From Telmatactis stephensoni (lineage: Eukaryota > Cnidaria > Anthozoa > Actiniaria > Isophelliidae): a stretch of DNA of 64,000 bases. The notes beneath the pieces are model-generated. The model was given only the letters and a program-made list of their open reading frames with translations. It was not told where the DNA came from and ran no database searches. Both the position numbers and the translations under genes were made by a program. The stretch is taken from positions 682,001-746,000 of the forward strand of contig JALIZF010001807.1 of assembly GCA_029948255.1 (NCBI GenBank), written 5' to 3'. Positions within the stretch are counted from its first letter, which is position 1, and each line of letters opens with the position of its first letter. Of this stretch, positions 11,335 through 55,505 are shown piece by piece.

Positions 11335-12033
11335 ATGCCAAGTCATTGTTGCGTGCCTCAGTGTACGACTAGAGGTTATCGTCGCGAAGACACTGGCGAA
11401 AAAATCTCCTTCTATACATTTCCCTCAGAGGCACTGCTAGAAAAGAAGTGGATACATGCCATAAGAAGAGACGAAGGACCTGACTTCAGAATTACCAAAT
11501 CTACAGTGGTATGCTGCCTGCATTTTCGCGAGAATGACATCAAACGAACACTCGTTGGGAAAAACATTTTGAAACCGGGAGTCGTTCCATCAGTGTTTTC
11601 GTGGGTCCGTACGTCGCCAAGGAAGAGGAAACCGCCAAAAGAAAGACTTTTTATCAATGATCCTCCCGCAAATAGTAATTTAGATGCTAGTTTTAGTCTG
11701 GTGGAAGAGCAAGAAGAGACACAAGATATCTTTGAAGTGGTACCATCGCAAACTGTGGATGTCGGAACGCAGACAGATTTTACCACATACGAGGTTCGTC
11801 TCTCCGAAATGGTCGCTGAATACACCAAACAGACTAAAATATTAGAGTTAAAAATCAAAGAATTAAAGGTAGAGTGTCAAGCTGCTGAACGCCGATGCGA
11901 GTCTCTTCAGAGCAGACTATTCACACTGGATGTAATGATGACTAAGAACTCTGACACTGCTGCTTTTTATACTGGTTTTCAAAGTTGGGATGCCTTCATG
12001 GTTATATATAATTATCTTGATCCAGGAGAGTAG
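11335..12033 (+). CDS. THAP zinc-finger N-terminal part of the ISL2EU transposase
   Basis: Residues 1-90 form a THAP DNA-binding domain: 'MPSHCCVPQCTTRGYRRE' supplies the first Cys pair, 'STVVCCLHF' the second Cys and His, with 'KKWIHAIRR' and the closing 'GVVPSVFSW' (the AVPTF-like box) also present. Residues of about 150-205 look like a coiled coil ('LELKIKELKVECQAAERRCE'), probably for dimerisation. The frame stops at TAG 12031-12033, but the same frame then continues without interruption into the DDE domain. The natural protein was therefore probably one polypeptide of about 516 residues, and this TAG is a disabling mutation or, less likely, a regulated stop. Confidence 0.85.
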   Translation: MPSHCCVPQCTTRGYRREDTGEKISFYTFPSEALLEKKWIHAIRRDEGPDFRITKSTVVCCLHFRENDIKRTLVGKNILKPGVVPSVFSWVRTSPRKRKPPKERLFINDPPANSNLDASFSLVEEQEETQDIFEVVPSQTVDVGTQTDFTTYEVRLSEMVAEYTKQTKILELKIKELKVECQAAERRCESLQSRLFTLDVMMTKNSDTAAFYTGFQSWDAFMVIYNYLDPGE

Positions 12034-12885
12034 GGGGAAAATATTAATTACTGGCTGTCAGGGAACACTGAAACTTCTGCTTCATATGATGATGATGATG
12101 ACTCTGAAGTGATTATATGCAAGAAGGGTAGAGCTAGAGCCTTGAAGCCTGTTGAGGAGTATTTCTTAGTCATGTGTAGATTAAGGCAGGGTTTCCATGA
12201 AGAGCACTTGGCTAACTTGTTTCATATCTCATTGTCTACAGTAAGCAGGATATTCATAACATGGGTCAATTTTATGTATCTCAAATTGGGAACAGTAAAC
12301 ATATGGCCATCAAGAAATGCTGTTGATCTGACAATGCCAGAAGCTTTTAAGCAAAAGTACAAATCTACAAGAGTGATAATAGACTGCACTGAGGTGAAAT
12401 GTCAAATGCCGAGCAGTCTACAACTGAATGGGGAACTTTTCAGCAGCTATAAACACCACACTACTTTAAAGGGGTTGGTGGGTATTTCTCCTGGAGGAGC
12501 TGTGACATTTATCAGTCAACTGTACACAGGTAGTATATCTGATAGAGAAATTGTAATGAGAAGTGGACTGTTGGATCTACCTTTTAAGGACAAAGACTCT
12601 ATCATGGCTGATAAAGGCTTTACCATTGATGATTTACTGCCACTAGGGGTTGGGTTAAACCTTCCACCTTTCCTGGGTGGTTCAAACCAAATGTCACCAG
12701 AGGATGTTGTGAGAACTCAAGAAATTGCAAGTCTTCGAATACACATTGAACGCGCAATTAACAAGATCAAAAACTTTCATATTTGGGACAGAGTTATCCC
12801 ACTCCACCAATTTGGAATAATAAATCAGATGTGGTCAGTATGTGCAATTTTGTGCAATGCACAGCCAAACATAATATCAATATGA
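12034..12885 (+). CDS. ISL2EU DDE transposase domain (DDE_Tnp_4-like), same frame as the THAP part
   Basis: This segment carries a helix-turn-helix-like region ('LANLFHISLSTVSRIF') followed by an RNase H-fold catalytic domain. The catalytic triad candidates are D in 'RVIIDCTEVKCQ', D in 'SIMADKGFTIDDLLP' and E in 'IRIHIERAINKIKNF'; 'YKHHTTLKGLVGISP' and 'GSISDREIV' are further family landmarks. It ends naturally at 12885. An ATG-independent start is implied: the ORF opens directly after the TAG at 12031, with an Asp-rich linker, so it probably needs the upstream THAP part to be translated. Catalytic residues look intact. Confidence 0.88.
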   Translation, partial: GENINYWLSGNTETSASYDDDDDSEVIICKKGRARALKPVEEYFLVMCRLRQGFHEEHLANLFHISLSTVSRIFITWVNFMYLKLGTVNIWPSRNAVDLTMPEAFKQKYKSTRVIIDCTEVKCQMPSSLQLNGELFSSYKHHTTLKGLVGISPGGAVTFISQLYTGSISDREIVMRSGLLDLPFKDKDSIMADKGFTIDDLLPLGVGLNLPPFLGGSNQMSPEDVVRTQEIASLRIHIERAINKIKNFHIWDRVIPLHQFGIINQMWSVCAILCNAQPNIISI

Positions 12886-13894: not shown

Positions 13895-15946
13895 TCAGTC
13901 AGAACCTGAGGTTTGGTTAGTTAATTTACAAAATTCTACAGCAGCAAATTTTATAAAGTGTCTAAAGTAATAAGAACTAAGTTTTTCTTTTAATTCATTC
14001 CAAAATTGAAAGTCAAAAGGAATCCTTTGAATATAAATACCTACATTAGTGTAAACAATGAAATCACACCATTTTGCCCCCGTTACCCCCATTTGTCCTT
14101 GCACTTGAGCAAAGTATCGGTTGTTTTTTTTTAACGAGCAAGTTGTATCGCTTGTTTTTTCCATAAAAAAGGTTGCATCAGAGCTAGCCTCCAATGGAGT
14201 GACTTGAAATTTAGAGTGTGGACATTTTACCTCTGCAATTCCATAGTGGTCAGTACATCCAGGGTCAATCACTCTAGCATCAGGTGTAGCTCCAAGAATT
14301 GGACAATCGTTCATAACAACAAACCCAGATGGCAAAACTTGAACAGGTGTTTTCCTGTTGAACATAAATTTATGGTACTGAACCAATGCAGTCGATTCAA
14401 ATTTCTTTCCGTGGTCTAGTGCTCTTAATGACAATGGCTTTGGATTTATTAGCTCATTGGCAAATTTGTCATGGTTCCTCTGCCTCCTTGAAATTCGATG
14501 GAACTGCGAGGCAGTAAACCTGAATTTTCGTTCGCTTTTCCACATATCGCATTCTGACTGCTTCCTCGTTTCCTTTTCAATTTTGTTGATATTGTCCTCG
14601 CTTAACTTTAGTTTACTGATGAGAGTTCCTTCATCGTCATTCAGGTTAGGTGGAACATCCATCTCATTGTCACTTGTTTTTCTCAACGGAAATCTAGGGT
14701 AGGTAAGTTCTTCTACCTCGTTTACAATTAACAGTCTTGGAACAGTATCAATGTCAGCTGTAGCTTGAAAATTTGACTCAGTAAATGTGGCCTGGTAGGA
14801 AAGGTAAGACCCAACTTTGCATTTGCCAAATTTTGTATCTACTGTGGAAATTTGTTGCACATCATCTTCTTGAATCATTTGAGCAAAGCCCACATTTGGG
14901 TCAATTTTTGCAAGTTCTTTTTTAAGGTTATTTTCTGCAGTGTTGTTGTGAGCTGTCTTCATTCTGGCTTCATACAAAAGGGACTTTACACCAGGTCTCA
15001 CTCTTTGTTCATCTAGTTTGGTTTTATTAACAACAATCTCAGTAACTGGTTCTGGTGCAATACTTGAGCCACCTCCTTTCCTATGCCACTGCTGTAATTG
15101 CGATGTACAAGCCAACGCTGCTTGTTGATCTGCCTCATGAGTAAGATCATCTGTCGACTTACAAGTAAACAGTGTAAATTTACAAAGCTTGAACATCAAA
15201 GCTAGAATGTGGTTACAATATCCGACGTTCCCGGCTACACACGAACAGTTCCCACTTTCAACTTCTCCCGATATCACACACAAAGCTAGCTTCAGTTCAT
15301 GCGGAGGGTCATTCTTTCTAAAGCTGTGGCAACATTTTGCTTTTATATAGAAGTAACGTTGGTCGTGTAAACAACGGATTTCTTCCAAATATTCGTCTTC
15401 TAAAAATGTTTTGGCCTTCCTTAGACCAGTCGGTATTGAGTTATGATCTTTCTTAGCAATCTTTTTTCCAGTATTTTTTATGTGGCTGTCCATGTTGGCT
15501 CTTGAAAACATTGGCATCTTTTCGAGTGACTTTGTCCACGCTTCGTCTACGCCAGGAAACTTGACACGTTCTTTCGGGATTTTATTCGTGGTAGTTAGCT
15601 GGAAATCCCTTTCTTTTCGTCGAGTATATAATTTGTGCGGATCGGGGTCAACGATGTCTTGGTCTCGACCAGTTCTGATGTAGTCGTTCACTCTATAAAA
15701 GCAAAACAAATGCATGTTATTTCAACAAGAATCACAAAGATTCACACATTTACGTCGAAGCGTACTTTACCTTTTCACCAACTGGGCTTTGGTTTTGAGA
15801 CCTTTTGCTTTGTCTCCACGACATTTAAGCCAGAACAACAATTCGTCATTTTTCAATTCCTCTGGCTTCCGTCCCAAGAGAGAAGCACCTTGAATATCAT
15901 CTTCGCAAAGAACAACAGAAACCAAACCACTACTACTAGACGCCAT
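13895..15946 (-). CDS. SAP-SWIM-YqaJ nuclease of the ISL2EU element
   Basis: There are two exons: 15771-15946 (ATG at 15946) and 13895-15692, joined across a 78-bp intron with GT/AG ends, giving about 657 residues. Exon 1 plus the junction encodes a SAP-like DNA-binding motif ('LLGRKPEELKNDELLFWLKC' followed by 'KTKAQLVKRVNDYI'). A SWIM-type zinc finger follows near residue 210 (CSC-x7-CNH). The YqaJ/lambda-exonuclease-like domain occupies about residues 450-600: 'FRFTASQFHRISRR', 'HGKKFESTAL', 'LGATPDARVI', 'IAEVKCP' and 'RYFAQVQGQMGVTGAKWCDF' supply the acidic and Lys/Gln active-site positions. It is intact. In ISL2EU elements this protein accompanies the transposase; its exact role in transposition is unknown. 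Confidence 0.9.
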
Positions 15947-19298: not shown

Positions 19299-22200
19299 TC
19301 ACTGGTATTCTAGAGGGCACAATTTTACAACTGGTCTTGTTACAATACTCTTTCCAACTTGAACATCAGCAACTCTGACTTGTCCATCAGCTCCTGGATG
19401 GGTCTTCACAATCCTTCCGAGCGGCCACTTTCCTCTTGGAGTATCTGATGACATAAGGATAACTACATCTCCTTCTTTGAAGTTCTCTCTGTTGTGAAAC
19501 CACTTCTTCCTTGAATTTAGACTTGGTAGCCATTCCTTCAACCATCGATGCCAGAAGTGGCGTACAAGCTCTTGTACTCTTCTCCATCTCTTCTTAGGGT
19601 TGAACGCTGTAGTATCAACGCTCTCAGGAGCAAATCTGCCACCAAGTTGTCCGTGTAAGAAATGATTGGGTGTCAGAGGAATTGTATCTGCGGGATTGGC
19701 TGATTGGTAGGTAAGAGGTCTCGAGTTAATAAGACCTTCTGCTCCAACAACTGCACTTAGCAGTTCTTCATCTGTTATGTCAGCAGATCCCAATATAGCT
19801 AGAATTGCTTTCTTCGCAGCTTTAACCATTATTTCGTGGACTCCGCTGAAGTGTGGTGCCAAAGGTGGGTTGAAATGCCATTTGACTCTGTAGGTAGATG
19901 TAGCATCTTGAATCTTGTCCTTGTCCAAGCGTCTCAAGGCTTCCAATTCATTATGAGCACCAACAAAATTGGTTCCATTGTCAGATAATACTTCTTCTGG
20001 TAGACCTCGCCTTGATGCCATTCGAAAAAAGGCATTAAGGAAGGAGTCCGTGTCTAAACTGTTTGCAACTTCCAAGTGAACTGCTCTTGTGCTTAAGCAG
20101 GTGAAAAGACATAGGTACCTTTTTTGGCACACTTTCCCACGTCCTTGTTTTGTGATAAAAGGGCCCGCATAGTCCACTGACGTTTGGCAAAATGCTCGCA
20201 ATGACATGCGTGTCCGTATAGCTGGTAAGGGTGCCATCAGTGGCTTCAATGGAGTTGTCTTTCTTCTTCGACATTCCATACATTCCTTTTCCCAATCTCT
20301 AATAGCTTCTCTTGGTGATAGAATCCAGTATTTGGTGGATAGCTCTGCCAGTACTTGATTCGTTCCTCCATGCTGCATTCGTTCGTGGTGTTCCTTTATG
20401 ATCAGCTTGGTAACATGATGATCTTTAGGAAGGATTATTGGGAAACGAGACTCCCATGGTAAACAATCAGCATAACAAAGCCTCCCGTTACATCTTAATA
20501 TACCATCTTGGTCAACAAATGGGTTCAGTGAAAGTATCTTGGACGAAGCTGTAAGGCTTTTTCCTGCTTTAAGTGATTTTATTTCTTCCTTGAAGACTTG
20601 TTCTTGAGCTTGCTTGATAACAAGTTGCTCTGATGAGATGAGTTCTTTTGTACTAAGTGGACCAAGCTGTCGTTGCTTGGGAGGTAGAAGGCAATTTTCT
20701 GCAAAGCGCATGACTCTTGCCAACACACGTGTAAGTTTTCTCCAACTGGAATACCTTGATGGCTCAAGACGGTTCTCACTAGTGATACCCATGAAGGTGT
20801 TACTGTCATCTTGCTTCACTCGAAACTGTTTACGAACTTCACTGGTTTGTCTGTCTTTTACTTCTAGCTTGCTAGTGGGCCACTCAGTTTTGTCCAACTT
20901 TAAAAAAGATGGTCCTTCCCACCAAGACTTCTCGTCCTTGAGTTGGGTCACAGATCGACCCCTAGTTAACAGGTCAGCTGGGTTTTGCTTTGTTGGTACA
21001 TACCGCCACTGCTCTGGATTTGTTGACTTCTGTATTTCACCCACACGGTTTGCAACAAAAGGTTTGAACTGTCTGCTCTGTCCTCGAATCCAGTACAGAG
21101 TGTCCATACTATCGGACCAAAACTGCCACATTGGCTTATCTACTCTTAGAACAGGACCAACTTTCTCAGCTTGTCGAAGTCCTACGATGGCTGACATTAG
21201 TTCTAGTCGGGGAATGCTAACTGCATGAAGTGGTGCAACTTTTGATTTCGATGCAACTAGGTTACATGAAACAGTTCCATCTTTGTACACATGTCTAACG
21301 TATGTCACAGCTCCATAAGCTTCTTGTGAAGCGTCAACAAAGGTGTGAAGAGTTACCTCTTCAACTTCGGCTGCAAGTCTAAGACATCGTGGTATTTGAA
21401 TCTCAGACAGTTCCAATAGCTCATCAAACCATTCTTGAGCTTTAGCTTCCAGTGTTGCATCTAACGGTTCATCCCAGTCGAGGCCTTTTGTCCACATGTT
21501 TTGAAGAAGGATCCTCGCATGGATAACGTATGGTGTCAAGAAGCCAAGGGGATCAAATAGTGTTGCTATTCGTTTCAGAAATCCTCGCTTGGTGCTTGTG
21601 TACTTTTCCTTTGGTTGGTTAACTTGAAACTTGAATTCGTCCTCCTTAGGAGACCATGTCACTCCTAATGTCTTTGTAACAGGTAGCTCATCCTTGTCGA
21701 GATCCACTTCAGTAACACAATCTGCTGTCGGTATAGCTTGTAGCACCTCTTGGGAGTTTGATAACCATTTACGTGCATGCATTCCGGCAGAAGCCCACAG
21801 CTGAGCCAGCTGCTCATACAACTCGATTGCAGTCTCAACGTTAGGCATTGAATCCATAGAATCATCCATATAGGTGCTGTTAAGGATTGTATCGGCAGCA
21901 AGAGGGTGTGTCTTCTGATTCTCTTGGGCATGGTGACGTGCTACTCCAAAGACAACTCTTTCAAATTCATAGACATCAGGTTCTCTTTCAGTCTCTAGTT
22001 GTCTCCACAGAAAACGGTGGTAGGGTCGGTCTTCTTCTTTTAGCTTTATCTGTAGATACATCTCTTTAATGTCACACATCAATGCAATCGGGTCATGACG
22101 AAATCTAAGCAAAACTGTAACCAAGTCATTCTGAAGCTTGGGACCTTGATACATCATGTCATTGAGAGAAACATCCTGACATTTTGCTGATGCATCAAAG

Positions 22201-25200
22201 ACTATACGAGTCTTGGTAGTGGCTTTATCAGGTCTCAGAATTGGAAAATGTGGCATATACCATCCTTCACCAGGTTTTCTGTCTTCTGGTGGTACTTTGT
22301 GAATGTATCCACGCTGAACGTAGCTCTGTATAACTTCATTGTAGTCTTTGCCAACTTGACTTGAGGATAGCAAACGTTTCTCTGTATTCTGTAGACGTCG
22401 TAAAGCCATACTATAACTATCAGGTAAAGAACGTCTGTCTCTCTTCCATGGCAATCCAACGCAATAATGACCATCTGTAAAAGTAAGAGATTCTGCTACT
22501 GTATTCTTGGCAATCCTGTCTTCAGGAGTGATCAGCTCTAAACTGCTAGGTTCCTCAATGTCCCAGAAACGACGGATAAGATTATTCAGCTCATTGTAGG
22601 CTGTAGCTGTAAATGTGTAGTTGGTACGAGCATTATCAAGTGGTGTAGTTGTTTGACCAATGCATGTCCATCCAAGTGGTGTTAATCTAGCTATTGGTTC
22701 TCCTGCCTGTCCTTTTACTTCCTTGATGGCACACATCAGCTCTGCATGATCCACTCCGATAAGAAGATCTACATTTGGTCGAGGTCCTGTTGATGGAAAT
22801 TCTATTGACTTCAAATGGCTCCATTCTTGCTTGTGTTGGTTCCAATCAACTGCTTTCATACTACCAGTCACTTTTTCAGCAGTGTAGGCTGAAGCTGCAA
22901 TGCTTGTATTTCCATCAAGGCTGCAAATCCTGAACTCCACAATAGAAGTATGTAGTGTCTCTTGGTTATCATTCAGAACATTTACAGTTAGCTCTTGAGG
23001 TGTTCCTTCGAGCCCGAGCTCTGCAGCAACATCAGCATTCAAATAAGTTTTGGTACTTGCATCGTCGAGAAGTGCGTTCACTTTTACTCTTTTGGTTCCA
23101 TTAATCACATACACAGGTACAGTTCTCAAAGCTATGAACTCTGTTGTTTGTGTCTTTTCTGTTGATAAAGTAGTTGTGTGTGATCTGTGTTCAGACTCCC
23201 CTTCCTTGGGAGGATGCTGTCGAGGCGTCCACCAGCCACTGCAACGACGCGAACCTTCACTCTGTTGTGATCTTGACGACTGGTTACATGCACTAGCACT
23301 TTGGAGAGTTCCACTTTCTTGAGAACTTGACACTGGTTTGGAGGTTTCCTTCACTTGGGTTGGGTTTCCGGTCGTCTCGGCATTTCTTTCATCTTGATGC
23401 AAAAGTCTGTGATGAAAATGCTGACAGTCACGCACTCCACAAACTCTACTCCTGGTGCATGATTTTCCTTGGTGTCCAGAGCCTAAACATCTATAACACA
23501 GACTTAGTTCTTTCGCCTTGTGCCATCGTTCCCTGGTACTCAATGACTTAAAATTGTCACAGTTCCATATTCCGTGAGCCTTGTTGCAGATCTTGCACTT
23601 CAGATAACTTTTACTCTCTTGCACAGATGATGGCGATGTAACAAAGGTTTTGGCAGAATTCTCTCTCTTACTACTTTCTTTGTTCAGTCCCTTTATGGTT
23701 TCCGAAGCTGTTGTGAGGAATTCTGACTCTTGATTGATAAATTCTCTGAGAATTTCAACAGACTCTTTCTGTTTATTCTCAAAGACCCAACAGCTGTACT
23801 TGGACAATAGATTTTCACTTAATTTTCGTTGAAGGGTAATGTACAACGAACCGTTTCCTAGCTCGCTTTCTTGACCAGCATCATGAAGATTCACAGTGAT
23901 CACGTCTAAAAGCTCTGCAAAACGTTCTAAGTCCTTTGCATTTCCATCGCGAATAGGTTTAAACTTGTCCAGCTCGTCCAGGCGAAGCATAATCTGTCTG
24001 CGTTTTCCACCATATTTTCTCTCCAATCTCTCTTTAGCAATCTCATATGCTGCAGCAGAGTGCCCAAGGCTGTCAATGACTCTCAGAGCCTCTCCTTCAA
24101 GACTATTACGTAGACGCAGTAGCTTATATTCTGATGTAGCTGTTGTTTTGTCGACACAAGACATAAAGGCTGCTTTCCACGATTCGTAGTTTTTCTTGTC
24201 CCCACTGAACTTCGGTATTGAAACACGTGTTAATAATCTTGACGAATCCATTTCCAATGATGAGTGCTGTGTAACGTAGTGTGATGATGGACGAGGACAC
24301 ATAGGCGTTGATGCTGCGGTATGCCCTCCAATGGGCAAGGTAAATGTATCTTGGGATTCCTGTAGTCTTTTAAACGATGAAGGTTCTTTATCTGTAATTG
24401 ATGAGGATCGGGTATCTTGTGGTTTATCCAACGATGAGTGTTCTTTATTCGATGTCGATTGGGTTTCCTGTGCTTTATGTAACGAAGAGTGTTCTTTCTC
24501 TGCAGATGCTGACTGGGTTTCCTTTAGACACAAGGGTTTTCTATCTGTTACCAAAGTATCACAGGCTTTCTGATTATTGAGCCATGGCGATTTTTGATCA
24601 GTTGGCGTGGATTGGGATCCCTGTGGTTTATCGTAAGATGACGGTCTTTCGTCGATTGTTGATGTCTGTGTTTCTTCAGAAAATAACGTTGATTCATCCT
24701 TTTGGGTATTTTGGCAACTAAGTACTCCATCTTTCGCTTGAGTTTTGTTGGTTTTGGATTCCTGTTCTTTTTCGGCCGGTGAGGGTAGTATATCCTTTTC
24801 ACTCCCGACGTCCTGTCTACTTGGTGTCTTGTTTGGCGCCACGTTATCTGGTTGGCGCGCCGGTTCGTCTGGGTCGACGTGTTCTTGTTGTAATAATTTG
24901 AAGCTTGATTCGATTTCTTTGACGATCTTGGATATTTCTTCTTCTTGTTTACTAACTTCTTGCTGTAGAATCTCTACTTGTTGCTGAGCTGGAATTTGTT
25001 TCGATGGTAAGCGTTTCTTTGTTTCGTTGCTGGGCGTAAGATTCCCCATGTTCGATGACTCAGCGCTTTTGTTTAGACAACCATTCACGATCTCCTCCGC
25101 TTCTTCGAATTCCTCTGCTATCGTTTCTAACTCACTTGAAAGCCGTCTTCCACTCTCTATATCTCCAGTACCTTCGTAGAATGTTTCCAGATCTTCGATT

Positions 25201-25364
25201 GTACCAATAACGTACTCCATTGCCTCGCTTAACGCATCCATTTGCTGTCTTATTTGTTGTCTTGACGATAGTCCGCCCTCTAATGTCATTAGCAGTCGAT
25301 TCCTTGTCTTGGTGAAAGCCGCTTTCGCTTTCGTCTTCTCTTTCTTCAGTCTTTCGATTGACAT
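19299..25364 (-). CDS. BEL/Pao gag-pol polyprotein
   Basis: A single 2021-residue ORF, starting 39 bases inside the 5' LTR. Order of domains: Ser/Thr-rich coiled N-terminus; DUF1759-type Gag from about residue 380 ('SIPKFSGDKKNYESWKAAF'); CCHC zinc knuckle near 620 ('CYRCLGSGHQGKSC'); DUF1758-type aspartic protease near 760 ('VNALLDDASTKTYL'); reverse transcriptase from about 1020 to 1200 with the catalytic 'YMDD' near 1163; RNase H-like region from about 1340 ('HTFVDASQEAYGAV'); integrase with HHCC zinc site (HH near 1657, 'CMECRR'), D in 'SVDYAGPF', D in 'LSDNGTNF' and E in 'GVHEIMVK'; and a C-terminal DUF5641 region. One oddity: between 'ERVVFGV' and 'ARHHAQ' the RT lacks about ten residues that BEL enzymes normally have there, so this copy may be catalytically impaired despite the open frame. 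Confidence 0.95.
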   Translation of the reverse strand: MSIERLKKEKTKAKAAFTKTRNRLLMTLEGGLSSRQQIRQQMDALSEAMEYVIGTIEDLETFYEGTGDIESGRRLSSELETIAEEFEEAEEIVNGCLNKSAESSNMGNLTPSNETKKRLPSKQIPAQQQVEILQQEVSKQEEEISKIVKEIESSFKLLQQEHVDPDEPARQPDNVAPNKTPSRQDVGSEKDILPSPAEKEQESKTNKTQAKDGVLSCQNTQKDESTLFSEETQTSTIDERPSSYDKPQGSQSTPTDQKSPWLNNQKACDTLVTDRKPLCLKETQSASAEKEHSSLHKAQETQSTSNKEHSSLDKPQDTRSSSITDKEPSSFKRLQESQDTFTLPIGGHTAASTPMCPRPSSHYVTQHSSLEMDSSRLLTRVSIPKFSGDKKNYESWKAAFMSCVDKTTATSEYKLLRLRNSLEGEALRVIDSLGHSAAAYEIAKERLERKYGGKRRQIMLRLDELDKFKPIRDGNAKDLERFAELLDVITVNLHDAGQESELGNGSLYITLQRKLSENLLSKYSCWVFENKQKESVEILREFINQESEFLTTASETIKGLNKESSKRENSAKTFVTSPSSVQESKSYLKCKICNKAHGIWNCDNFKSLSTRERWHKAKELSLCYRCLGSGHQGKSCTRSRVCGVRDCQHFHHRLLHQDERNAETTGNPTQVKETSKPVSSSQESGTLQSASACNQSSRSQQSEGSRRCSGWWTPRQHPPKEGESEHRSHTTTLSTEKTQTTEFIALRTVPVYVINGTKRVKVNALLDDASTKTYLNADVAAELGLEGTPQELTVNVLNDNQETLHTSIVEFRICSLDGNTSIAASAYTAEKVTGSMKAVDWNQHKQEWSHLKSIEFPSTGPRPNVDLLIGVDHAELMCAIKEVKGQAGEPIARLTPLGWTCIGQTTTPLDNARTNYTFTATAYNELNNLIRRFWDIEEPSSLELITPEDRIAKNTVAESLTFTDGHYCVGLPWKRDRRSLPDSYSMALRRLQNTEKRLLSSSQVGKDYNEVIQSYVQRGYIHKVPPEDRKPGEGWYMPHFPILRPDKATTKTRIVFDASAKCQDVSLNDMMYQGPKLQNDLVTVLLRFRHDPIALMCDIKEMYLQIKLKEEDRPYHRFLWRQLETEREPDVYEFERVVFGVARHHAQENQKTHPLAADTILNSTYMDDSMDSMPNVETAIELYEQLAQLWASAGMHARKWLSNSQEVLQAIPTADCVTEVDLDKDELPVTKTLGVTWSPKEDEFKFQVNQPKEKYTSTKRGFLKRIATLFDPLGFLTPYVIHARILLQNMWTKGLDWDEPLDATLEAKAQEWFDELLELSEIQIPRCLRLAAEVEEVTLHTFVDASQEAYGAVTYVRHVYKDGTVSCNLVASKSKVAPLHAVSIPRLELMSAIVGLRQAEKVGPVLRVDKPMWQFWSDSMDTLYWIRGQSRQFKPFVANRVGEIQKSTNPEQWRYVPTKQNPADLLTRGRSVTQLKDEKSWWEGPSFLKLDKTEWPTSKLEVKDRQTSEVRKQFRVKQDDSNTFMGITSENRLEPSRYSSWRKLTRVLARVMRFAENCLLPPKQRQLGPLSTKELISSEQLVIKQAQEQVFKEEIKSLKAGKSLTASSKILSLNPFVDQDGILRCNGRLCYADCLPWESRFPIILPKDHHVTKLIIKEHHERMQHGGTNQVLAELSTKYWILSPREAIRDWEKECMECRRRKTTPLKPLMAPLPAIRTRMSLRAFCQTSVDYAGPFITKQGRGKVCQKRYLCLFTCLSTRAVHLEVANSLDTDSFLNAFFRMASRRGLPEEVLSDNGTNFVGAHNELEALRRLDKDKIQDATSTYRVKWHFNPPLAPHFSGVHEIMVKAAKKAILAILGSADITDEELLSAVVGAEGLINSRPLTYQSANPADTIPLTPNHFLHGQLGGRFAPESVDTTAFNPKKRWRRVQELVRHFWHRWLKEWLPSLNSRKKWFHNRENFKEGDVVILMSSDTPRGKWPLGRIVKTHPGADGQVRVADVQVGKSIVTRPVVKLCPLEYQ

Positions 25365-45114: not shown

Positions 45115-45632
45115 GAGCGAGCGATCTATTTGTAGATTGGAATTCCAATAGTCATTACAAGAGCTGACGTTAAAAGCTGTTATCTAATATTGACTTTGAA
45201 GTCATTCACTGTCTAAAAATCTGAATTTTACTTAACAATGAAACACTTTGACTTTGAATGATTTATCCTATACAAGGTTTTTGAATATTGTTATGTTATC
45301 AGTATGTGCTTGGGCTTATATTTAACTTTTCAAAATAATCTCATGTGCACGATTCATCTTCTCGGCTGTTTTGCAATCAAAATTGCACGATTTTTTCTCT
45401 GGCATAATGTTATACAGGTAGTCGAACTTCATCAAATATTTCATCAGAGATTCAAGGTGTGAGCACTGGGGCTCCAATGTAAGCCATTCTAATAAGAAAA
45501 TGTAAGCAAACAAATTCAGAGCAGATTTTGCTCATTTTGCTCACTTCAAAAAATTATTGCATCAATTTTACTGACTTCAAAGTATATAGTACTTGAGGTC
45601 TACCCTGATTTTAATCTTCATCCCCTGACAAA
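45115..45632. other. Noncoding stretch between piggyBac remnant and coiled-coil ORF
   Basis: A minus-strand ORF at 45322-45513 ('DYLYNIMPEKKSCNFDCKTA') looks protein-like but has no partner. Otherwise nothing. Confidence 0.35.
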
Positions 45633-45776
45633 TCAGTCCTTCAATGCAAATAGCTCACTAGCAAATTTGTCACTATCTATGAGCTCCATTTTGGCAGTTG
45701 TAAGTTGCTGTTGAGGATGACGCAACTCTTTCTCGGCCTTCTCCACTCATGTCATGTTTTGCTCTTTGGTGGATTT
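45633..45776 (-). pseudogene. 3' part of a coiled-coil ORF interrupted by the RecQ/DUF6589 transposon
   Basis: Minus-strand codons from the target duplication (45769-45776) read '...STKEQNMT', an in-frame TGA, then 'VEKAEKELRHPQQQLTTAKM' to TGA at 45633. The frame is the exact continuation of 54896-55040 on the other side of the transposon when one copy of GTGGATTT is removed. Related to the coiled-coil pseudogene at 34858-35298. Confidence 0.6.
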
Positions 45777-45930
45777 TAGACTGCGAGCAGTCCCCCTTTT
45801 CCCTCCAGATTCCGATAATACGAGTTTATCGAAAACTCGGCCGAGCGAGGAATGGGGGAGAGAGGGGGAGGGGAGGTTGGGAGAGGAAAAGGAGGGACTG
45901 CGGACAACACTGTAAAGTTTGAATTACTCG
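45777..45930 (+). repeat. Left terminal inverted repeat of the RecQ/DUF6589 transposon
   Basis: The first 33 bases match the right end perfectly. Two further islands match (around the 'gaatgggg' block and 'ggaaaaggagggactgcgga' to 'gtttgaa'). The outer CCCCCTTTTCCCTCC and inner GGAAAAGGAGGGACT are themselves inverted, so each repeat can fold on itself. Confidence 0.9.
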
Positions 45931-46054
45931 TTGCCCACACAACGCAAAATTCCCATTGGTCAGAATTAACAATCACTCATCGGCGTGTCAGCTTACTGCC
46001 AATCACTTTGGTGATCCACACCAGGCATACTTGCCCATCGTAGTTTGATAAAAC

Positions 46055-48171
46055 ATGGCGGAAGAGTTAATTGAAGCGTGTTTAGAGAATTTTCCAAATG
46101 TAAATATTTTAAAATCAGAACAGAAAATTGCCGTTAAAAGTTTACTAGACGGTAAAGATGTTTTTGCCGTTTTGCCGACGGGATTCGGCAAGAGTCTTAT
46201 TTATCAATTGTATGTCATGGCAAAACTTAAATCAAAAGAGCGTTGTTTAGTTCTGGTCGTTTCGCCATTGAGAAGCATTGTTCAAGATCAGATCAACGAT
46301 TTAGCAGCACTTGGAATTACTGCAGCAGAATTAGGGGAAGAAACGTTCGACGATGTTTCAGAGGCAAGATTTTACGTGGTTTTTTCCTCGGCAGAGAACT
46401 GCCTTTCGAGTCAATTTCAGACTATACTGAAGAACAAGAAATTAGACCCCAGCTTGATCGTTGTGGACGAGTCCCACACCGTGGATACCTGGTATGTATA
46501 TAAAGCTTAGCTAAGAATAGCTATAGGTCAGAAGTTTGTATAAAGTCTATAAGTTACTACACAACTGACGTCTGTGATTGTAATGTTGGATACAAACATG
46601 TGGGAAATCTAACCTTATAAGAAAGTAAATCTCCAAAGATTTATGAAGAGCTCTCTCTCTACCTCTATTTAGTCCTGTAAATAAGTTGACTAACATTTAC
46701 AAGATTATTTTGCATATTATTCAATTTATTCCTCAACTGGCTATATATAGTTTTCGTCGCTTAATTCTTGGTCTTGCTTTTTTTTGTAAGGGGGACTCAA
46801 ACCAAGAAGAAGAAGAATACTCAGCCAGCATTCCGAAAAGATTATGGAAATTTAGCTACCCTCAGATCGTTTTGTTCGGAAGGTAAGGTACTCCAATGAC
46901 ACTAATGTTTATTCAAGCCTGCATGTTCTAAAATGTCCTTTGATTAAATTTTATTGACCATCTACATTGTTACAACAGGCACTCCACTTCTTGCACTCAC
47001 TGGCACTGCAAACAACAAAACTTCAAAGAAAATAAAAAAGCTGTTGGTAATGAAGCCTGACACAATAACTGTGACTGTCAGCCCTGACAGAAAAAACATT
47101 AGATACACAGTACTTTCAACAGAGAAGGGAAAAGAAATGGAAAATCTACAGTGGCTTATAAACATGGCAAAGGAAATTGGTATCCTAATGCCCAAGACAA
47201 TCATATTTTGCAACACTTATAATGAAATTGCAGCAGTGTTAGCTTATTTACTTAGAATCCTTGGTGACTGTGCATATATTGGTGGACAGTTAAAATGCCC
47301 TGCAAACAGAATTATTGGAATTTATCACTCCATGACATGGGATAAGTATAAGGACAGAGTTGTGGAGTCCTTTAAGAATGATAATGGAAATATACGTATT
47401 GTACTTGCTTCTTCAGCCCTGGGTATGGGGGTCAATTTTCCAGATGTTCGGTATGTTATTCACCTTGGGCCGGCCAGATCTATTATTGACCACGTTCAAC
47501 AAGCTGGACGGGCTGGACGAGATGGTAAACCAGCTCATAATATCATCATTTCAACTGGGCCCAAGGAAGCCCATTGTGAAGCAGCAGTTAAAGAATTTGT
47601 AAGATCCAAAGATTGCCTGAGGAAAGCATTGCTCAATCAACTAGATAAATCAGTTACTAGTCTGTTGCCAATGCATGCATGTTGCTCAAATTGCAGTTCA
47701 CACTGCAAATGCAATGGGGTTCATTGTACTAGAGAAAAGTTTCCTTTTGAAAGTGAACATAAAAATGTTGTACCTTTACAAAGTAGAGAACTGTGTGAGG
47801 ATGACAAACTCGTGCTACGAGAGGCCTTAAAGGAGTACAAGGATTCATTAAACAAATCAACAACTCATGTCTTTGGGAGTGAAGCAGTTCATGGATTCTC
47901 TGATCAATTGATTGATGATGTTATCAGCAATGCACATGTTATTTTTACACTGGATGATCTTTTGCTTAAAACACCAGTATTTTCCAAGGAACATGCCAAA
48001 TTTATTTTGGGAATTTTCCAAGACATGTTTGAGGACATGGATGACAGTGAGTTAGTTTTAGAGGATCTTTTTGAAATTGAAATGGAACTTTCTCTAGAAA
48101 GTGATACTCAAGAGTACTTTGACTTTAGTGACAGTGATGAAGAAAATCCAGATGTATTCCCAGAATTGTAA
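46055..48171 (+). CDS. Transposon-encoded RecQ-family DNA helicase
   Basis: Three exons: 46055-46491, 46791-46882 and 46979-48171, all with GT/AG borders, giving 573 residues with no stop. Motif I 'AVLPTGFGKSLIYQ' (Walker A at residues 41-47), Ia 'VVSPLRSIVQDQ', II 'LIVVDESHTVDTW' (DESH in place of RecQ's usual DE[AV]H), the RecQ-specific 'KDYGNLATLRSF' before III 'LALTGTA', IV 'IIFCNTYNEI', V 'VLASSALGMGVNFPDVRYVI' and VI 'QQAGRAGRDG' near residue 350. A RecQ zinc-binding Cys cluster follows near 409-425 (CCSNC, HCKC). No HRDC domain; the C-terminus is strongly acidic. Predicted ATP-dependent 3'-5' unwinding, probably acting during the element's transposition rather than in host repair. The start lies 278 bp inside the left terminus. 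Confidence 0.93.
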
Positions 48172-49052
48172 TTAATCGTAAAGCTGGTAAAGTTGTTCAA
48201 GTTGTACAAAATCAGTGCCAAGTCTTAGTGTATGTTGTGAATCCACACAGGTATGAGCATAAATAAATAATGCCTTTGATACATTAAAATGTTTAACACT
48301 GAGTGTATATAGTCAATTGAAGAAACATTGTCAGGTCTAAAACATTAGAACCTAGAAGCTGAGACTGAAATGGTGCTTGGGACGTCAATAATAATATTCT
48401 CATTTATTCATTTATTCATTCAGTTTGATGCAAAATGCCAAAAGCGGTTACAGGACCTCTGCAATGGCGGGCTGTTTGGCTTTTAATTTTTTATTGGTTG
48501 CAGCGTAATTAAATAAATAAATCAGGATATAATTATTGACATCCCATACACCATTTCGGTCTCAGCTTCTGTGTTTTTAGACCCGGCAACATTTCTTTGA
48601 TTGAGTGATATACATTAGAACATCATTTATGTATATGACATTTAGCAACAAAATTCAATTGGTTGAAAAATTAAACTTTAGAGACGCATTACACCTACTT
48701 TGATGACATTGGAGTCACAGTAGGATCTCTTGGAATCAAAAGCTTATGAGATTATCTTCTGAGTAAGTGTACTGTGTCTTGTAGTTTAAATTTTTAACTC
48801 AATTATTAACACAAGTATAGATAAATGTTTATGCAAACAAACTTAGGTCAATAGATTTATTTACATTTTGTACATGACTGGCTAGGATCACCTGCATATC
48901 TACAATATCTCAAATATTGAGGATTTATGCAGTGTCACTTACAAGCTTCTCTTTATTAACATGGAGTGAAAAATGTTCTTGTTCAAGTTAAATGTATTTC
49001 ATATTGTGCAAATGACATATCACTTAGAATAAATAATAAAATCATTATGGTA
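48172..49052. other. Convergent 3' spacer of the RecQ/DUF6589 transposon
   Basis: AT-rich sequence between two convergent stops, presumably the 3' untranslated ends of both transcripts. Near 48345-48570 'tcaggtctaaaacattagaacctagaagctgagactgaaatgg' has a loose inverted partner ('ccatttcggtctcagcttctg' with 'agacccg'), flanking a small foldback insertion. Confidence 0.45.
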
Positions 49053-52000
49053 TTACAATTGCTCATATCTTTTTGACCATTCAGATAATTTCTCTTTCAT
49101 CCACTTGTACAAATCTCGGTAGTCAAGCTTTTGTAATAAATTAGAACTGAATTTGGGAAAGGATGGGTAACCAGGTCTACCAGGTGTATATACAAATACA
49201 TTTTCACTCATAAGATCCTTAACAATTTGTGCCACTGCTTCAGTGGGATCTGTTTTTGATCTGTTCTTGATTTCATGACATTGCTGGCTGTCTTTGTCAA
49301 CTCCTGCTAGTATCTTTTCTACTTTTCCAATGGATCTGGCAACTCTCTGTGCTGACTCTTCGCTAAAATTTGGGCCAAGGACCTTAAGACATGACTTAAG
49401 TATGCCGTTTAGTTGTTCTAACCTTAAATCTAGAGATATATTTTTGCCAATTTTACCATGACTATTACAAAACCTGTTAGCTATCAAGCTCTTTGCTTTT
49501 TCTAAAGGTAAAATAGCTTTGATTTTGGCCAAAAACAGCAGACATGTATAGGAGTATTTTGTATGACCATAAGATTTGTAAAATAATAGAGCAATTTTGT
49601 ACAGGTTAACCAAACGTTGGCCATCGCCCTCTCTTATGGCATCATTTATATCAAAGAGTAGTAATCCATAGCACATCTTTGATTTATGGTAATTATATTT
49701 GTAGTCTTCAGAATCTTTTTTGTCATCTGTTTTGGTTTCTGTGTTGTTATCAGTTATCTCTGGTGTGTAGTCTGTGTGGTTTTTCTTTAAGTGCCTGACA
49801 AAGGAATTAAAAAGGGTAAATGACTAAAGATAAAATTTAAAGAGGTACATAGTCGACTTTTTGGCAAACCTTTTCAGTGTGGCCTTGGTTTTATAGACAA
49901 GATTACAGTTGGGAGAAGGGCATTTATAATACCCTAAGCTGTTTCTCTCATCCCCTTCCCTATCTTGCACTTGCAAGCCATGCTTTTGGGTCTCGTGCCT
50001 GAGAAGTAAAATTAAAAGTTACCTTACAACAACATGAATACTTAGAGATAACTCCCCACCTTTCTAAATAGTAGAGTGTATACAATTATTTTGTGAAACA
50101 AACACTACTAAATAGTGTTGATTAGACAATAAAGAATTACCATGATTTAGTACTATTTTGTACTATTTAAGTGTGTGCATGCTATTTGCCATCAAATACA
50201 TTTACAATTTGTACTCATTCACTCAATTTTTTACTTATGGCTGACATTTTGCTATTTACAAGGATTCACTTTTTTACACTTCCAATTTTTATTTAATGAA
50301 CTGTAATAAATTCTAAATGAAATATTCCCTTAAATCTAATTTTAAAATGGTTAGAATTTTTTTTGAAATGATTATAACAAGAATCACTCAGGAAAATTAT
50401 TATTTGTTGTTTTTAGGTTACAGTTCAAGTTTGCAAGTGTCAAAAAGAACATGGACTAGCTTTGAAATCTTAGTGGGCAAAGTTTTTTCAAAATCATCCG
50501 TGACAGTTATAATTTCACTATTTATAGTCATTCATTAGTCTGTTTGTAAAGATAAATAACTCTTGAAGAAATAATACCTAACTCTCCAAGCATCACTCTG
50601 GTATTGCTTGTCACAGCCTGGAGCTCGACACATAAAGCCTTGATTCAAATTCCTTTCCAAAGTACTAACTTGCTCTGTGATATCAGTTATTCGGTGGTTC
50701 TGAAAGACAAACTCAGCAAGGAATTGTCTGATTACACTACTTAACCATCCTCTCTTTTGAACTCTGTCATCCCATTTCACTGGAATAAGAAGCTTAGATG
50801 GAATACCTAGATAAAAGATGAAACAAAGAAATTAAAAAAAGTATCCAAATTTGTAATATTTTGATGTATAGTTTCCCATTTTACACACCTTCTAAATCTT
50901 CTATTCCCGTAAATGTCATGAAGGAGGATAGGACATGTGCCTCAATTTCCCTGTCATGGAAGTCTCGGTAGGCATTATAATCCTTTACCCCCTTTCCAGC
51001 ATTTGTTTTTCCTGTGCGGTTAATGGATGCTCTTGTGGTTCCAATCTCTGCTGCGGATTCATCTTTTAAGAATATCTTATTTTCAACCTAAAATGTATAT
51101 AGATGTGCATAGTCCTGCATTATGTAAACAGTCATCCTTTGCTCACCAGTGAATGTCTACACTATAAGCTTGAGCTATAGCTAATTAGATATGCATTTTA
51201 TAATTGCCTTCAGTTGATGATTTCAACTGATCATACTTTTTATCGAGACATGTAAAGTTGTCTGAAGTGACTATTTCAAAAATGTTACAGTTCAAAGCAA
51301 CAAGCATAAAGCCAAGACTGAAATTAATGTGGGTTTGTTGCCAGAATTGCCTTCAAATCAGGCTTAAAGAAAAAGCATGTGAGAATGGTCACATTTTGAT
51401 TAGTTCAGTCTATAGAAACAAGTCTGATATATATTTATTATTGGCATAAAACCAGCATTTATTTTGGCCTTGGCTTGGTGCTTGTTGTTCTGAGTTGTGA
51501 CAACATTTTTTGAGATAAATCTATATGAAATACTTAGAGGAAAAGGGAGGGAGATATTTTGTTTTGAAATTGATAACTAGTAATTAAATGTTAACATTTC
51601 TTTACCTGGTATAAATTAACTTTGGCATGCCAGTCAGCATGTGTAGGGTCAAGCCCTTCCAAACGATCATAAGCATTATCCCCATCTTGAAACACCCACT
51701 GGACATTCCTAGCTCGCTCCTCTGTTAGCTGATCACCATCTAAGAAGACTGAGTCAAAGACTATTTTGTTGTCTCCATCTTCCATTTTGGGCACATATTT
51801 TGACTGATCTGTCATGAGAAACTGAGCCATTTCACCTGATACATTGGTATTGAAGAACTCTAGACCAAGACCACACTAAGAGATCATGAAAACAACTCAT
51901 AATATTATTAGTAATAATAAAATAATTCTAAAAGCACATTAAATGATTCTGGATTATACTGCAAATGGTTTCTCTTTCCCAGCAACCAATAAAGGTGATT

Positions 52001-54515
52001 TGTTTAAAATACTGTACACTTAAATATTGACATCATTTTGTACAATAATAATGTCTTTAGAACAATAAACAACACTGTTATTAATGTGTCTAGCTGAGCA
52101 GAAGGAAATACAACTATGAAATAAATGAGAATTGAACAGTGCAAATAGCATGACTTAAACTGGAGAACAGAGGTGCTATTCAATTTTGTTGCTGAGTTAT
52201 TTCATGATTTTAGTGTTAGCTCTTTACTTTGTCATAGCACTCACCACATCTGATTTGCGAGACATTTCCTTTGAGTATTCATGAGGAATATGATGAATGA
52301 CAATATCTTTAAATGAGTTGAATGCCTTCAAAAACTTTGTAACAATCCTTGAAACCAGCACTACAAAATCATTCTCCAGCTGTGTGTTTGCATCTGCATC
52401 TGGTAGCAACTCTGTAAGCTCCAAATCTGTAATCTTTTTTTGGCCTGATTGCTTTTCATGATCATCACGACTCAGGGGAAAGCCCACTCTGTCTCTGATT
52501 GCATATTGGTGTGTCCAGTGGATAGACTTGTTCCTAGTTTTGTTTGTTTGTACTCTAGCTTGAACACTAAAGTCCAGGTTGTCAGCCACAATCCTGAGAC
52601 AAAAAAAAATAAATACAGGTAGAATAACAGACTCAATAAGTGCAATTGTTCTCACTTTCATCTTCTCTTTAATTTTCTTTTCTTTCATTATAACCCCTTT
52701 TGCTTTGGTTAGCAAAAATTCTTTTATTTATATCTATATTTTATATATATTTTATTTTGTTAATTTTATCTCTTAGTATAGTGCAAGCTGTTTTAAGAGT
52801 ATTTGATTAAAGATTCATTCTTTTATATTATTGTATGTGTGTGTGTGTGCAACTAGGAACTTTTAGATTTTTTATGCCAAAATAAAATAACGAGAAAAGT
52901 CTACCTTAATTAATTAGGATAACACGTATATGTTTTAAACTCACCTGTATGTAGTTGGTGGTTTGACTTTTAGTTTCTCAATATCTTTCACATTAATGAC
53001 ATCACTTCCCTTGACTACCTGTTCTTCAAGGTGATCAACGAGTGCTTTCATTGTTTCTTCTGAATATCCTTCGTATTTCTCTAACGTTGTTTTCGAAATA
53101 TCGATTTCTTCGTTCTCATTTGGAGTTTGCTTGTTTTCAATTTCCCCAATAAGCGTCAATGAAAGTTTCTTCTTTTCGACGTCATTTTTCCATTCAATCA
53201 CCTGGCTATCAAAGTTTTTCCCCATTTCGCGTTGATCTCGGATGGCCTGCTTGTGTGAAGTCGACACTCCAAGATGATTCAGCCTGGTAAAATCCTGTGA
53301 CTTCGCGCCGCTATGTAGCAATATTGTGGAAATCCGCTTCGACACAGCAGACATGCAATGATTGTTGTGCTTGGCGGCAACGGCGGTTACAAGAGCAAGC
53401 GGATTTACAGCTTTCTTGTTTTCCTTCTCGGATTTGTGAGCATTGAATGCACCAGAAATACAAGAAAACCAGACGGGAGTTTGGATTTTGGCTTCTTCTA
53501 CAATTTCGCTGTTTGCAAATGAAGACACCTCGTCAGAAGAGCTGCGTTTTAAGACGCTGTTACTTTTACCGTACACAGAGAATTCTTTAGACACGGTTCG
53601 AGTCAACAAATGTAGGACTTCTTTTTTCAGGCCGTCGTGATTAAAAAGGCAGTTTGCTGCTGACTTCCATTTCTTCTGGCAAATATTTCTTATAAGGGCA
53701 GCAGAAGTGTCATCCGGAGGTGTTCTAATTGACAAGGATTGACCGCGCGGAATTATAACTTTGACTCTTGGTTTATCGTGTTTATTAACAGAAGTAAAAT
53801 CCACATTGTTTATACTCAGTAAATGGTTGATATTGTGTCTTGACAAAACAGACGTCTCAGGCTCGATATCCTTGCTTTCAGTTGTTGTTGGATCTTTTGA
53901 GTGTAGTTCGTCGAGGTGTTCACTGGTACTGGTCGACATGTCGACATTGTTCGTTGTTGTTGTTATTTCGTCTTGACTTGATGTCGTTGCTTCACCAAAA
54001 CGAATCCTCTTTCTCACAGAGACATTTCTGGCGATACTGCTGTGTTCAACAGTGGCTGCTGGCGAGCTGATCCTGGCAGTTTTTCGAGCTTCGGAATAAG
54101 CTGGAGATGTTGACATGCGCTTGAATCTTTCGGGCGAATCTTCTTGTTTGACTAAGTGAGTGTCCAAGAAAAGTTTTGTCTCTGCAGCCCTTCTAATTTT
54201 TGTACCACACTTTGCACATACGCGTGAGGAAATTCCATCCCCTTCAACAACACTATAACCAAGATCTTGAAGTTGAAAAACAAGAGGACGATTCGAGACG
54301 CCAGATCTTCCTGGTACGTTGAATATATTTTCAGTCGAAACTTTGTTGTTCGAAAAATCGCCATAATAATTCTTAAACGAGCAGCCACAAACTCTGCAAA
54401 AGTCGTTTGCTGATGTAGGCTTAGGCTTTCGGCCTCTCTTGCTCGGGATTTTTTTTTTCGGCGTTTCCATAACGAGCCGGACACACGAGCATTTGAGTGC
54501 GCGGGAAAAAAGCAC
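49053..54515 (-). CDS. DUF6589-type zinc-finger protein, candidate transposase
   Basis: Seven exons: 52945-54515, 52245-52593, 51606-51875, 50889-51087, 50578-50806, 49870-49998 and 49053-49794. Every junction is GT/AG and keeps frame, giving about 1162 residues (1147 if the second Met, 'METPKKK', is used). An N-terminal C4 finger of ZAD-like layout (C40, C43, C100, C103) is followed by a long Ser/Thr-rich linker. The conserved core has 'VADNLDFSVQARVQTNKT' (about 527), 'SIHWTHQYAIRDRV', 'FLDGDQLTEERARN' (about 685) and 'ADWHAKVNLYQ'; then two C2H2 fingers, each split by an intron ('CRAPGCDKQY', 'YKCPSPNCNLVYKTK'), and the C-terminal 'DAIREGDGQRLVNLYK', 'YGHTKYSYTCLLFLAKI', 'GKNISLDLRLEQLNGILK'. 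This order matches DUF6589 proteins of cnidarians and fungi (recalled). The invariant Asp residues suggest an RNase H-like active site, unproven. Confidence 0.85.
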
Positions 54516-54654
54516 TAGCTCACTAGCTTACTAACTTACTTCAGTAATAATGCAATCTTATTGGATAGTTTAAATTGGAACTAATTGGATCTAATTTTGT
54601 TTAGTTGATAATGATGACCCGATGACACATTTATGACAAGTGTGAAAAAGGGGC

Positions 54655-54895
54655 GGTAGTTCAAACTTTACAGTGTTGTCCGCAGTCCCTCCTTTTCCTC
54701 TCCCTTCTCCCCTAACTCGTCCCCATTCTCCACTCGTCCAGGTATTTTCGAAGCGCTCGTTTTTACTGATTCTGGAGGGAAAAGGGGGACTGCTCGCAGT
54801 CTCCTAACTCGTCCCCATTCTCCACTCGTCCAGGTATTTTCGAAGCGCTCGTTTTTACTGATTCTGGAGGGAAAAGGGGGACTGCTCGCAGTCTA
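54655..54895 (-). repeat. Right terminal inverted repeat, with a tandem duplication of the outer 92 bp
   Basis: The outer segment 'ctaactcgtccccattctcc' through 'gggactgctcgcagtct' occurs twice in tandem (about 54712-54802 and 54804-54894), so the right end has two tips. Only the outermost carries the target duplication. The inner copy joins the polypyrimidine tract and 'ttcaaactttacagtgttgt'. Confidence 0.88.
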
Positions 54896-55040
54896 GTGGA
54901 TTTTGACAGCTTGAATTTGTTTAGCAAGTGGTCAGGACATTTTTGGTTAATTTCGTTGTTGACCTTATCCACTTCATCTTTAATAAGCTTGGATTTTTCT
55001 AATGTCCAGGCAACATGTATTGCCCCAATTTTTAGCCACA
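54896..55040 (-). pseudogene. 5' part of the interrupted coiled-coil ORF
   Basis: The minus strand encodes 'GAIHVAWTLEKSKLIKDEVD' and 'NEINQKCPDHLLNKFKLSKS', ending at the target duplication. It aligns with the 34858-35298 coiled-coil fragment. It continues, across the transposon, into 45633-45776 in the same frame. Upstream it abuts LINE sequence at about 55040. Confidence 0.6.
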
Positions 55041-55505
55041 TGCCAAGGTACTTCATCGTTTTGACTTTTTCTAATATCTTGCCATAAACACTCAACTCAG
55101 GCTGGGATTCATCAAGCTTGTGGTATCTGGTATTTGGTCGGTTGTAATCATCATTTGCTTAGTTTTTGTAGGATTTAGCAACAAGTTAGATGCTCCTGCC
55201 CAGTCATTCAGTGAGCTGAGTGATTGTTTCAATGAGTTGGTAGTCGAGTCAAGTTGAGATGGTGTACAATGGGTGTAAAGCATTGTATCATCAGCGTACT
55301 ACACTGTGGAGCCATGAACTTGACTAAGATCGTTTATGTATAGGCTAAATAGAACAGGTCTGAGGATGGATCCTTGAGGCACTCCAAAATGGGTGTTGAT
55401 GGATTTGCTTTGTCATTTACTTGTACAAACTGCTGTCGGCCTCTAAGATAGCTCAGGATCCAATTTAAAAAGCTTTTTGGAAAGTTCATGTTGTGGAGCT
55501 TTTTT
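55041..55505 (-). pseudogene. LINE reverse-transcriptase fragment (jockey/CR1-like)
   Basis: Minus-strand frames encode 'FLNWILSYLRGRQQFVQVND', 'HFGVPQGSILRPVLFSLYIN', then an in-frame TAG immediately before 'YADDTMLYTHCTPSQL', and 'LNDWAGASNLLLNPTKTKQM' with 'KTMKYLGMWL'. GVPQGS...FSLYINDL, YADD and the N-P-x-KT motif are the palm-domain signatures of non-LTR retrotransposons. It is truncated at both sides and frameshifted near 55390, so it is dead. Confidence 0.8.

Follow-up and report, generated by a model that had tools for sequence, protein, structure and literature searches.

The 64,000-bp stretch of Telmatactis stephensoni DNA analysed here (the window) contains, at positions 45777-54895, a 9,119-bp element in which a gene for a RecQ-type helicase and a gene for a protein with the Pfam domain DUF6589 are enclosed by inverted ends. 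We are fairly confident that this is an intact and likely autonomous cut-and-paste transposon, most likely AcademH (Academ), in which the DUF6589 protein is likely the DDD/E transposase and the RecQ protein likely its helicase partner. Membership in AcademH is the most likely placement, and is drawn from the helicase and the duplication length in published descriptions rather than from a comparison of transposase sequences. What is new here is the well-preserved family with intact frames and deletion derivatives, the co-inheritance of RecQ and DUF6589, and the likely function of DUF6589.

Boundaries, copies and duplication lengths of the element

The element is flanked by two copies of GTGGATTT that match exactly (8/8 bp), and its ends begin TAGACTGCG. 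The inverted repeat consists of outer arms (45777-45835 and 54837-54895) that are 85% complementary and inner arms (45879-45927 and 54656-54704) that are 98% complementary. A scan of positions 45501-55100 for TA-tips with an exact duplication of 8-10 bp returned the 45777/54895 pair as its sole match, and a match of any kind was obtained in 1/60 block shuffles. Furthermore, a search of the organism's own genome (483.5 Mb, 1782 contigs) with the joined flanks identified two paralogous element-free sites, one on C85 (201/236 identical, ungapped) and one on C322 (200/236 identical, with a single 1-base gap away from the junction). Since both sites cross the junction without a gap and contain the duplicated stretch only once, as GTGGCTTT with one base changed, the boundaries and the duplication of the window element are real. 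The concern that the 8-bp duplication might be due to chance can practically be set aside, given these empty sites. The insertion target itself (approximately 45665-45776 and 54904-55027) lies in a repeat, of which at least two additional copies, 85% identical, are present on C322 and C85.

Two further full-length copies are present in the same genome, on C685 and C351, and these are 99.89% and 99.83% identical, respectively, over the shared 9,026 bp. At its right end, the window copy alone has a tandemly duplicated 92-bp stretch (54708-54891). The remaining differences among the three copies amount to 20 columns with substitutions and a gap of one base, and both gene frames are open in all of them (3/3). 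The window element is well preserved and, as the near-identity of the copies indicates, recently mobile. A preliminary description, made from the window alone, had proposed a complete transposon with RecQ and DUF6589 that was recently active; the inverted ends, the exact 8-bp duplication, the empty sites and the near-identical copies bear out the first part of this proposal, and the 99.8-99.9% identity with open frames in 3/3 copies supports the second. With full-length open-frame copies, defined ends and natural short derivatives, the family also constitutes a resource. The right-end junction of one such derivative, of 206 bp on C3 (L011), lies at approximately the same breakpoint as the window's 92-bp duplication.

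The left tip, TAGACTGCGAGCAGTCCCCCTT, holds the short palindrome GACTGC-GA-GCAGTC. Counting copies by their tips, as the preliminary description had suggested, gave 146 exact genome matches to the 22-base tip (71 forward, 75 reverse), as compared to 0 exact matches for the reversed tip used as a control. The analysis of tip pairs rests on 100 of these 146 places, with the copy on C685 being outside the 100. Among the matches listed, 37 inward pairs span 66-9,119 bp (14 at 66-243 bp, 16 at 0.8-1.0 kb, 5 at 2.2-3.2 kb and 2 full-length), and a single outward pair of neighbours within 12 kb was observed. For the census of target duplications, 20 fetched places and the window provided 21 elements, from which L014 and L028 were left out with a single readable tip each. 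All 19 elements with both tips readable have duplications of 8-9 bp, the length being 9 bp in 15/19 and 8 bp in 4/19, so that the window element carries the rarer length of its tip family.

The RecQ and DUF6589 genes and their paralogs

The two genes are convergent, and both are open as spliced by prediction, with 8 introns in total that were picked by hand from GT-AG sites and reading frame. The helicase, encoded on the plus strand in three exons, has the previously given length of 573 aa, whereas the second protein, encoded on the minus strand in seven exons, has 1147 aa and not about 1162 as first described. Pfam searches identified the domains DEAD (1.4e-17) and Helicase_C (9.8e-16) in the helicase; in NCBIfam it matches the RecQ family best (9.9e-54), and the closest solved structures by sequence are RecQ and BLM. 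Helicases of the RecQ family act in the 3'-5' direction. Motifs III-VI are recognisable in 10/10 representative loci and motifs I-II in 8/10, the exceptions being L037, in which exon 1 is not alignable, and L049, which has a partial motif I and NKSH in place of DExH.

The 1147-aa protein contains a DUF6589 domain (7.5e-38), annotated in Pfam as being of unknown function. This protein also has weak matches, below the cut-off, to seven other Pfam families, among which five are zinc-finger or zinc-binding families, and no transposase domain was among its matches at E up to 1, a result that is compatible with remote kinship. Named relatives occur in Paramuricea, Stylophora, Porites, Clytia, Branchiostoma and Apostichopus. 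The residues D513, D516 and D673 are invariant in an alignment of five sequences (A1) and are kept in 4/6 paralogs, namely the four in which those parts aligned, and D673 is shared by 10/10 sequences of a wider alignment (A3). Because this is the sole other gene seen, because it lies between ends with RecQ in several families, and because these aspartates are conserved, the DUF6589 protein is likely the transposase, which is the most economical reading. DUF6589 would thereby gain a likely job, as the transposase of helicase-carrying transposons.

Paralogs elsewhere in the genome indicate that the two genes belong together, as had been suggested. The RecQ search gave 89 matches (scoring covered the best 76 of 818 candidates), 30 of which were made into loci with about 1.5 kb of flank on each side, and pairing was counted from the RecQ side. 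The three full copies account for six of these loci, and another five are fragments of exon 1; in 14 of the remaining 19, a convergent DUF6589 gene was identified beside RecQ within about 1.5 kb. The 14 include near-identical groups (L037/L039, L042/L044/L057 and L043/L050) and hence represent fewer than 14 independent families. RecQ and DUF6589 distances are correlated across 14 loci (r 0.955), comprising the window family and all but one of the paired loci, L051 being dropped because its DUF6589 part had no overlap with the others; with one representative per near-identical group (10 loci), the correlation is 0.84 (permutation p 0.0006). As judged from these distances, the correlation shows that both genes have long been co-inherited, and speaks to their inheritance rather than to their function.

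Ends were searched for in six paralog regions, each about 10 kb long, and complete further families were recovered from three of these (3/6). The family on C635 has the ends TAGCCTGCG and the 8-bp duplication AGCCCGTT (shuffle control 1/60), that on C145 has the ends TAGCCTGCG and the 9-bp duplication CCAACCCCG (1/60), and that on C213 has the ends TACCCTGGG and the 9-bp duplication GGGAAGCCA (0/60). Common to the complete families are a start with TA, duplications of 8-9 bp and convergent RecQ and DUF6589 genes.

Yet another set of relatives consists of short derivatives, of which 15 elements of 0.8-1.0 kb were compared. A fragment of RecQ exon 1 is present in 12/15 of these, and the 12 are 96-100% identical among themselves. 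Since the protein encoded by the fragment is only about 70% identical to that of the window's exon 1, these elements derive from a sister subfamily. The remaining three (L012, L018 and L019; 3/15) are mutually identical at the rounding given, and their sequence corresponds to the DNA surrounding the two gene starts; therefore, the sister parent probably had a gene layout like that of the window element. A full-length sister parent was not seen among the 89 RecQ matches; the closest RecQ core outside the three full copies, among the best 76 of the 818 candidates, is 53% identical over part of the sequence and 46% over most of it. Short elements that retain only the ends would be mobilised in trans. 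Two exon-1 matches of the sister subfamily (C294:525661-526095 and C1092:32349-32783) lie within 190-codon stop-free open frames.

Putative mechanism and alternative explanations

We hypothesize that the DUF6589 protein would bind the long inverted ends via its zinc-finger-like parts, cut them, and link them to target strands with a stagger of 8-9 bp. A possible task of RecQ is to unwind the ends, potentially at their short palindromes, or else the gaps that arise at donor and target sites during strand transfer and repair; this helper role in end opening or gap repair is proposed because of its membership in the RecQ family. The short tip palindromes are a possible RecQ substrate, for which the shuffle statistics are mixed: among six tips from four families, the share of shuffles that fold equally stably ranges from 0.002 to 0.34.

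Several observations weigh against the element being an AcademH transposon with a DUF6589 transposase and a RecQ partner. The RecQ protein reaches 182.8 bits and thus falls below the NCBIfam RecQ cut-off of 219.8. The candidate catalytic positions are D513/D516 and D673, with no third acidic residue assigned, and one relative (P0020) is without the first aspartate in alignment A3. The transposase role had already been proposed in the preliminary description, and while the pairing and the conserved aspartates favor it, an RNase H fold was not evident in the models of two relatives, which were poor (pLDDT 57 and 54), and the structure comparison gave no clear match. Duplications of 8-9 bp, with 10 bp in 0/19 elements, differ from the 9-10 bp reported for AcademH. 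Finally, no DUF6589 was found within the 1.5-kb flanks in 5/19 RecQ loci (L040, L045, L046, L048 and L056), and the end scan recovered no ends in three of the six paralog regions (L059, L067 and L068).

The best-surviving alternative, which we regard as unlikely, is that elements with RecQ and DUF6589 form a superfamily separate from Academ, and that the RecQ partner was gained independently, as in KolobokH. The duplication lengths are in its favor, as are the known presence of RecQ in another superfamily, Kolobok, and the fact that DUF6589, a family without an assigned function in Pfam, was not found mentioned in the literature searched. However, the descriptions of AcademH agree with a helicase gene accompanied by another large gene, with duplications that are mostly 9 bp and with an animal host. 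We consider it quite improbable that these elements represent a distinct superfamily whose new type of transposase is co-inherited with a dedicated RecQ that opens the palindromic tips during transposition.

AcademH is reportedly, in a 2020 study by Kojima (Mob DNA 11:15), the helicase-encoding lineage of Academ and occurs in animals and fungi. The window element resembles it in being a DNA transposon with a helicase gene, its RecQ with motifs I-VI sharing the ends with the DUF6589 gene. The spliced genes and the relatives in Paramuricea, Stylophora and Porites point to a cnidarian as the probable host. According to a passage in one article, duplications are 9 or 10 bp in AcademH and 3 or 4 bp in AcademX, which is linked to the encoded helicase or nuclease (PMC10045372), whereas the window family has mostly 9 bp, sometimes 8 bp and in none of the 19 elements 10 bp, so that its range overlaps that of AcademH. 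AcademX would belong to the same superfamily if the AcademH placement is right, but differs in its nuclease and its 3-4-bp duplications; no nuclease family was matched by the element's proteins in the Pfam search beyond ResIII, which corresponds to the helicase part.

Kolobok elements have a 4-bp target duplication, TTAA. The title of a 2008 study names a RecQ-like gene for an element of Tolypocladium. RecQ is placed downstream of the transposase domain in KolobokH, which is reported from fungi only, and on the complementary strand in Kolobok-1_CCri from a rhodophyte (PMC9587614). Both resemble the window element in that a RecQ helicase occurs alongside a DDD/E transposase, the likely role of the DUF6589 protein here, and in Kolobok-1_CCri RecQ is on the complementary strand, as it is here, so that layout alone cannot set the window element apart from Kolobok. 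Yet RecQ in the present element is a separate convergent gene, unlike in the fungal KolobokH, and the TTAA target is absent, with 8-9 bp in 19/19 elements. The claim in the preliminary description that no named group fits is probably wrong, AcademH being in print and RecQ being present in Kolobok too. An issue posed by both AcademH and KolobokH, namely the need of a cut-and-paste transposon for a RecQ of its own, can now be addressed directly.

The elements of hAT, MuDR and KDZ also have long target duplications, but their Pfam transposase domains are unmatched by the second protein of the element at E up to 1. Helitrons are not known to have inverted ends or to duplicate their target, and their helicase is of the Pif1 type. 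They resemble the window element in carrying a helicase, whereas that of the latter is RecQ-type and accompanied by inverted ends and target duplications. According to a passage of a further article, Helitrons transpose in single-stranded form by means of an HUH/Y1 transposase (PMC12730594).

It is very unlikely that RecQ is a captured host gene carried as passive cargo, with DUF6589 alone being of importance for movement. The spread of 12/15 short elements with an exon-1 fragment only, which means that a whole RecQ is unneeded in cis, and the five RecQ loci without a DUF6589 gene in their 1.5-kb flanks would be consistent with such cargo, but the paired divergence of the two genes and the widely recognisable helicase motifs speak against it. 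The notion of two unrelated adjacent repeats with a chance duplication, for which no supporting evidence was found, can practically be dismissed in view of the element-free paralogous sites and because the full copies, three in all, occupy separate sites and each have an 8- or 9-bp duplication of their own.

Feature coordinates and other elements in the window

The coordinates of the AcademH-like element and its parts are collected in Table 1. The earlier statement that nothing else lies inside the element is not quite right, as the convergent genes are separated by a hairpin-like stretch, which is likewise covered by the alignment of the other full copies and may be a nested miniature element.

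Table 1. Features of the RecQ-DUF6589 element and its flanks, in window positions
Feature	Positions	Strand	Basis
Left target-site duplication GTGGATTT, 8 bp	45769..45776	.	sequence
Left terminal inverted repeat, two blocks	45777..45927	+	repeat-arm comparison
RecQ exon 1 (PTGFGKS, DESH)	46055..46491	+	GT-AG and frame; domain search
RecQ exon 2	46791..46882	+	GT-AG and frame
RecQ exon 3 with stop (motifs III-VI, QQAGRAGRDG)	46979..48171	+	GT-AG and frame; domain search
Imperfect hairpin-like stretch, about 290 bp	48313..48604	.	internal repeat pairs I1, I5
DUF6589 exon 7 with stop	49053..49794	-	
DUF6589 exon 6 (start of weak C2H2-like match, continuing into exon 7)	49870..49998	-	
DUF6589 exon 5	50578..50806	-	
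DUF6589 exon 4	50889..51087	-	
DUF6589 exon 3 (second candidate catalytic residue, D673, in the conserved GDQLTEERARN)	51606..51875	-	
DUF6589 exon 2 (first candidate catalytic residue, D513/D516, in the conserved ADNLD; HIPHEYS)	52245..52593	-	
DUF6589 exon 1 (N-terminal cysteines; weak zf-AD match, E 0.15)	52945..54470	-	
Right terminal inverted repeat, including 92-bp tandem duplication (54708-54799, 54800-54891)	54656..54895	-	
Right target-site duplication GTGGATTT, 8 bp	54896..54903	.	sequence

Elsewhere in the window, an open reading frame (ORF) for a piggyBac-type transposase was identified at 2858-4045 (DDE_Tnp_1_7, 4.9e-57), and an ORF for a Harbinger-like DDE_Tnp_4 transposase at 11335-12885, with a THAP-like ORF recognised by eye upstream of it. 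A 606-aa ORF with a YqaJ-like recombinase domain is located at 13895-15715, and a 2,021-aa ORF at 19299-25364 resembles, by eye, the polyprotein of a BEL/Pao-type retroelement.
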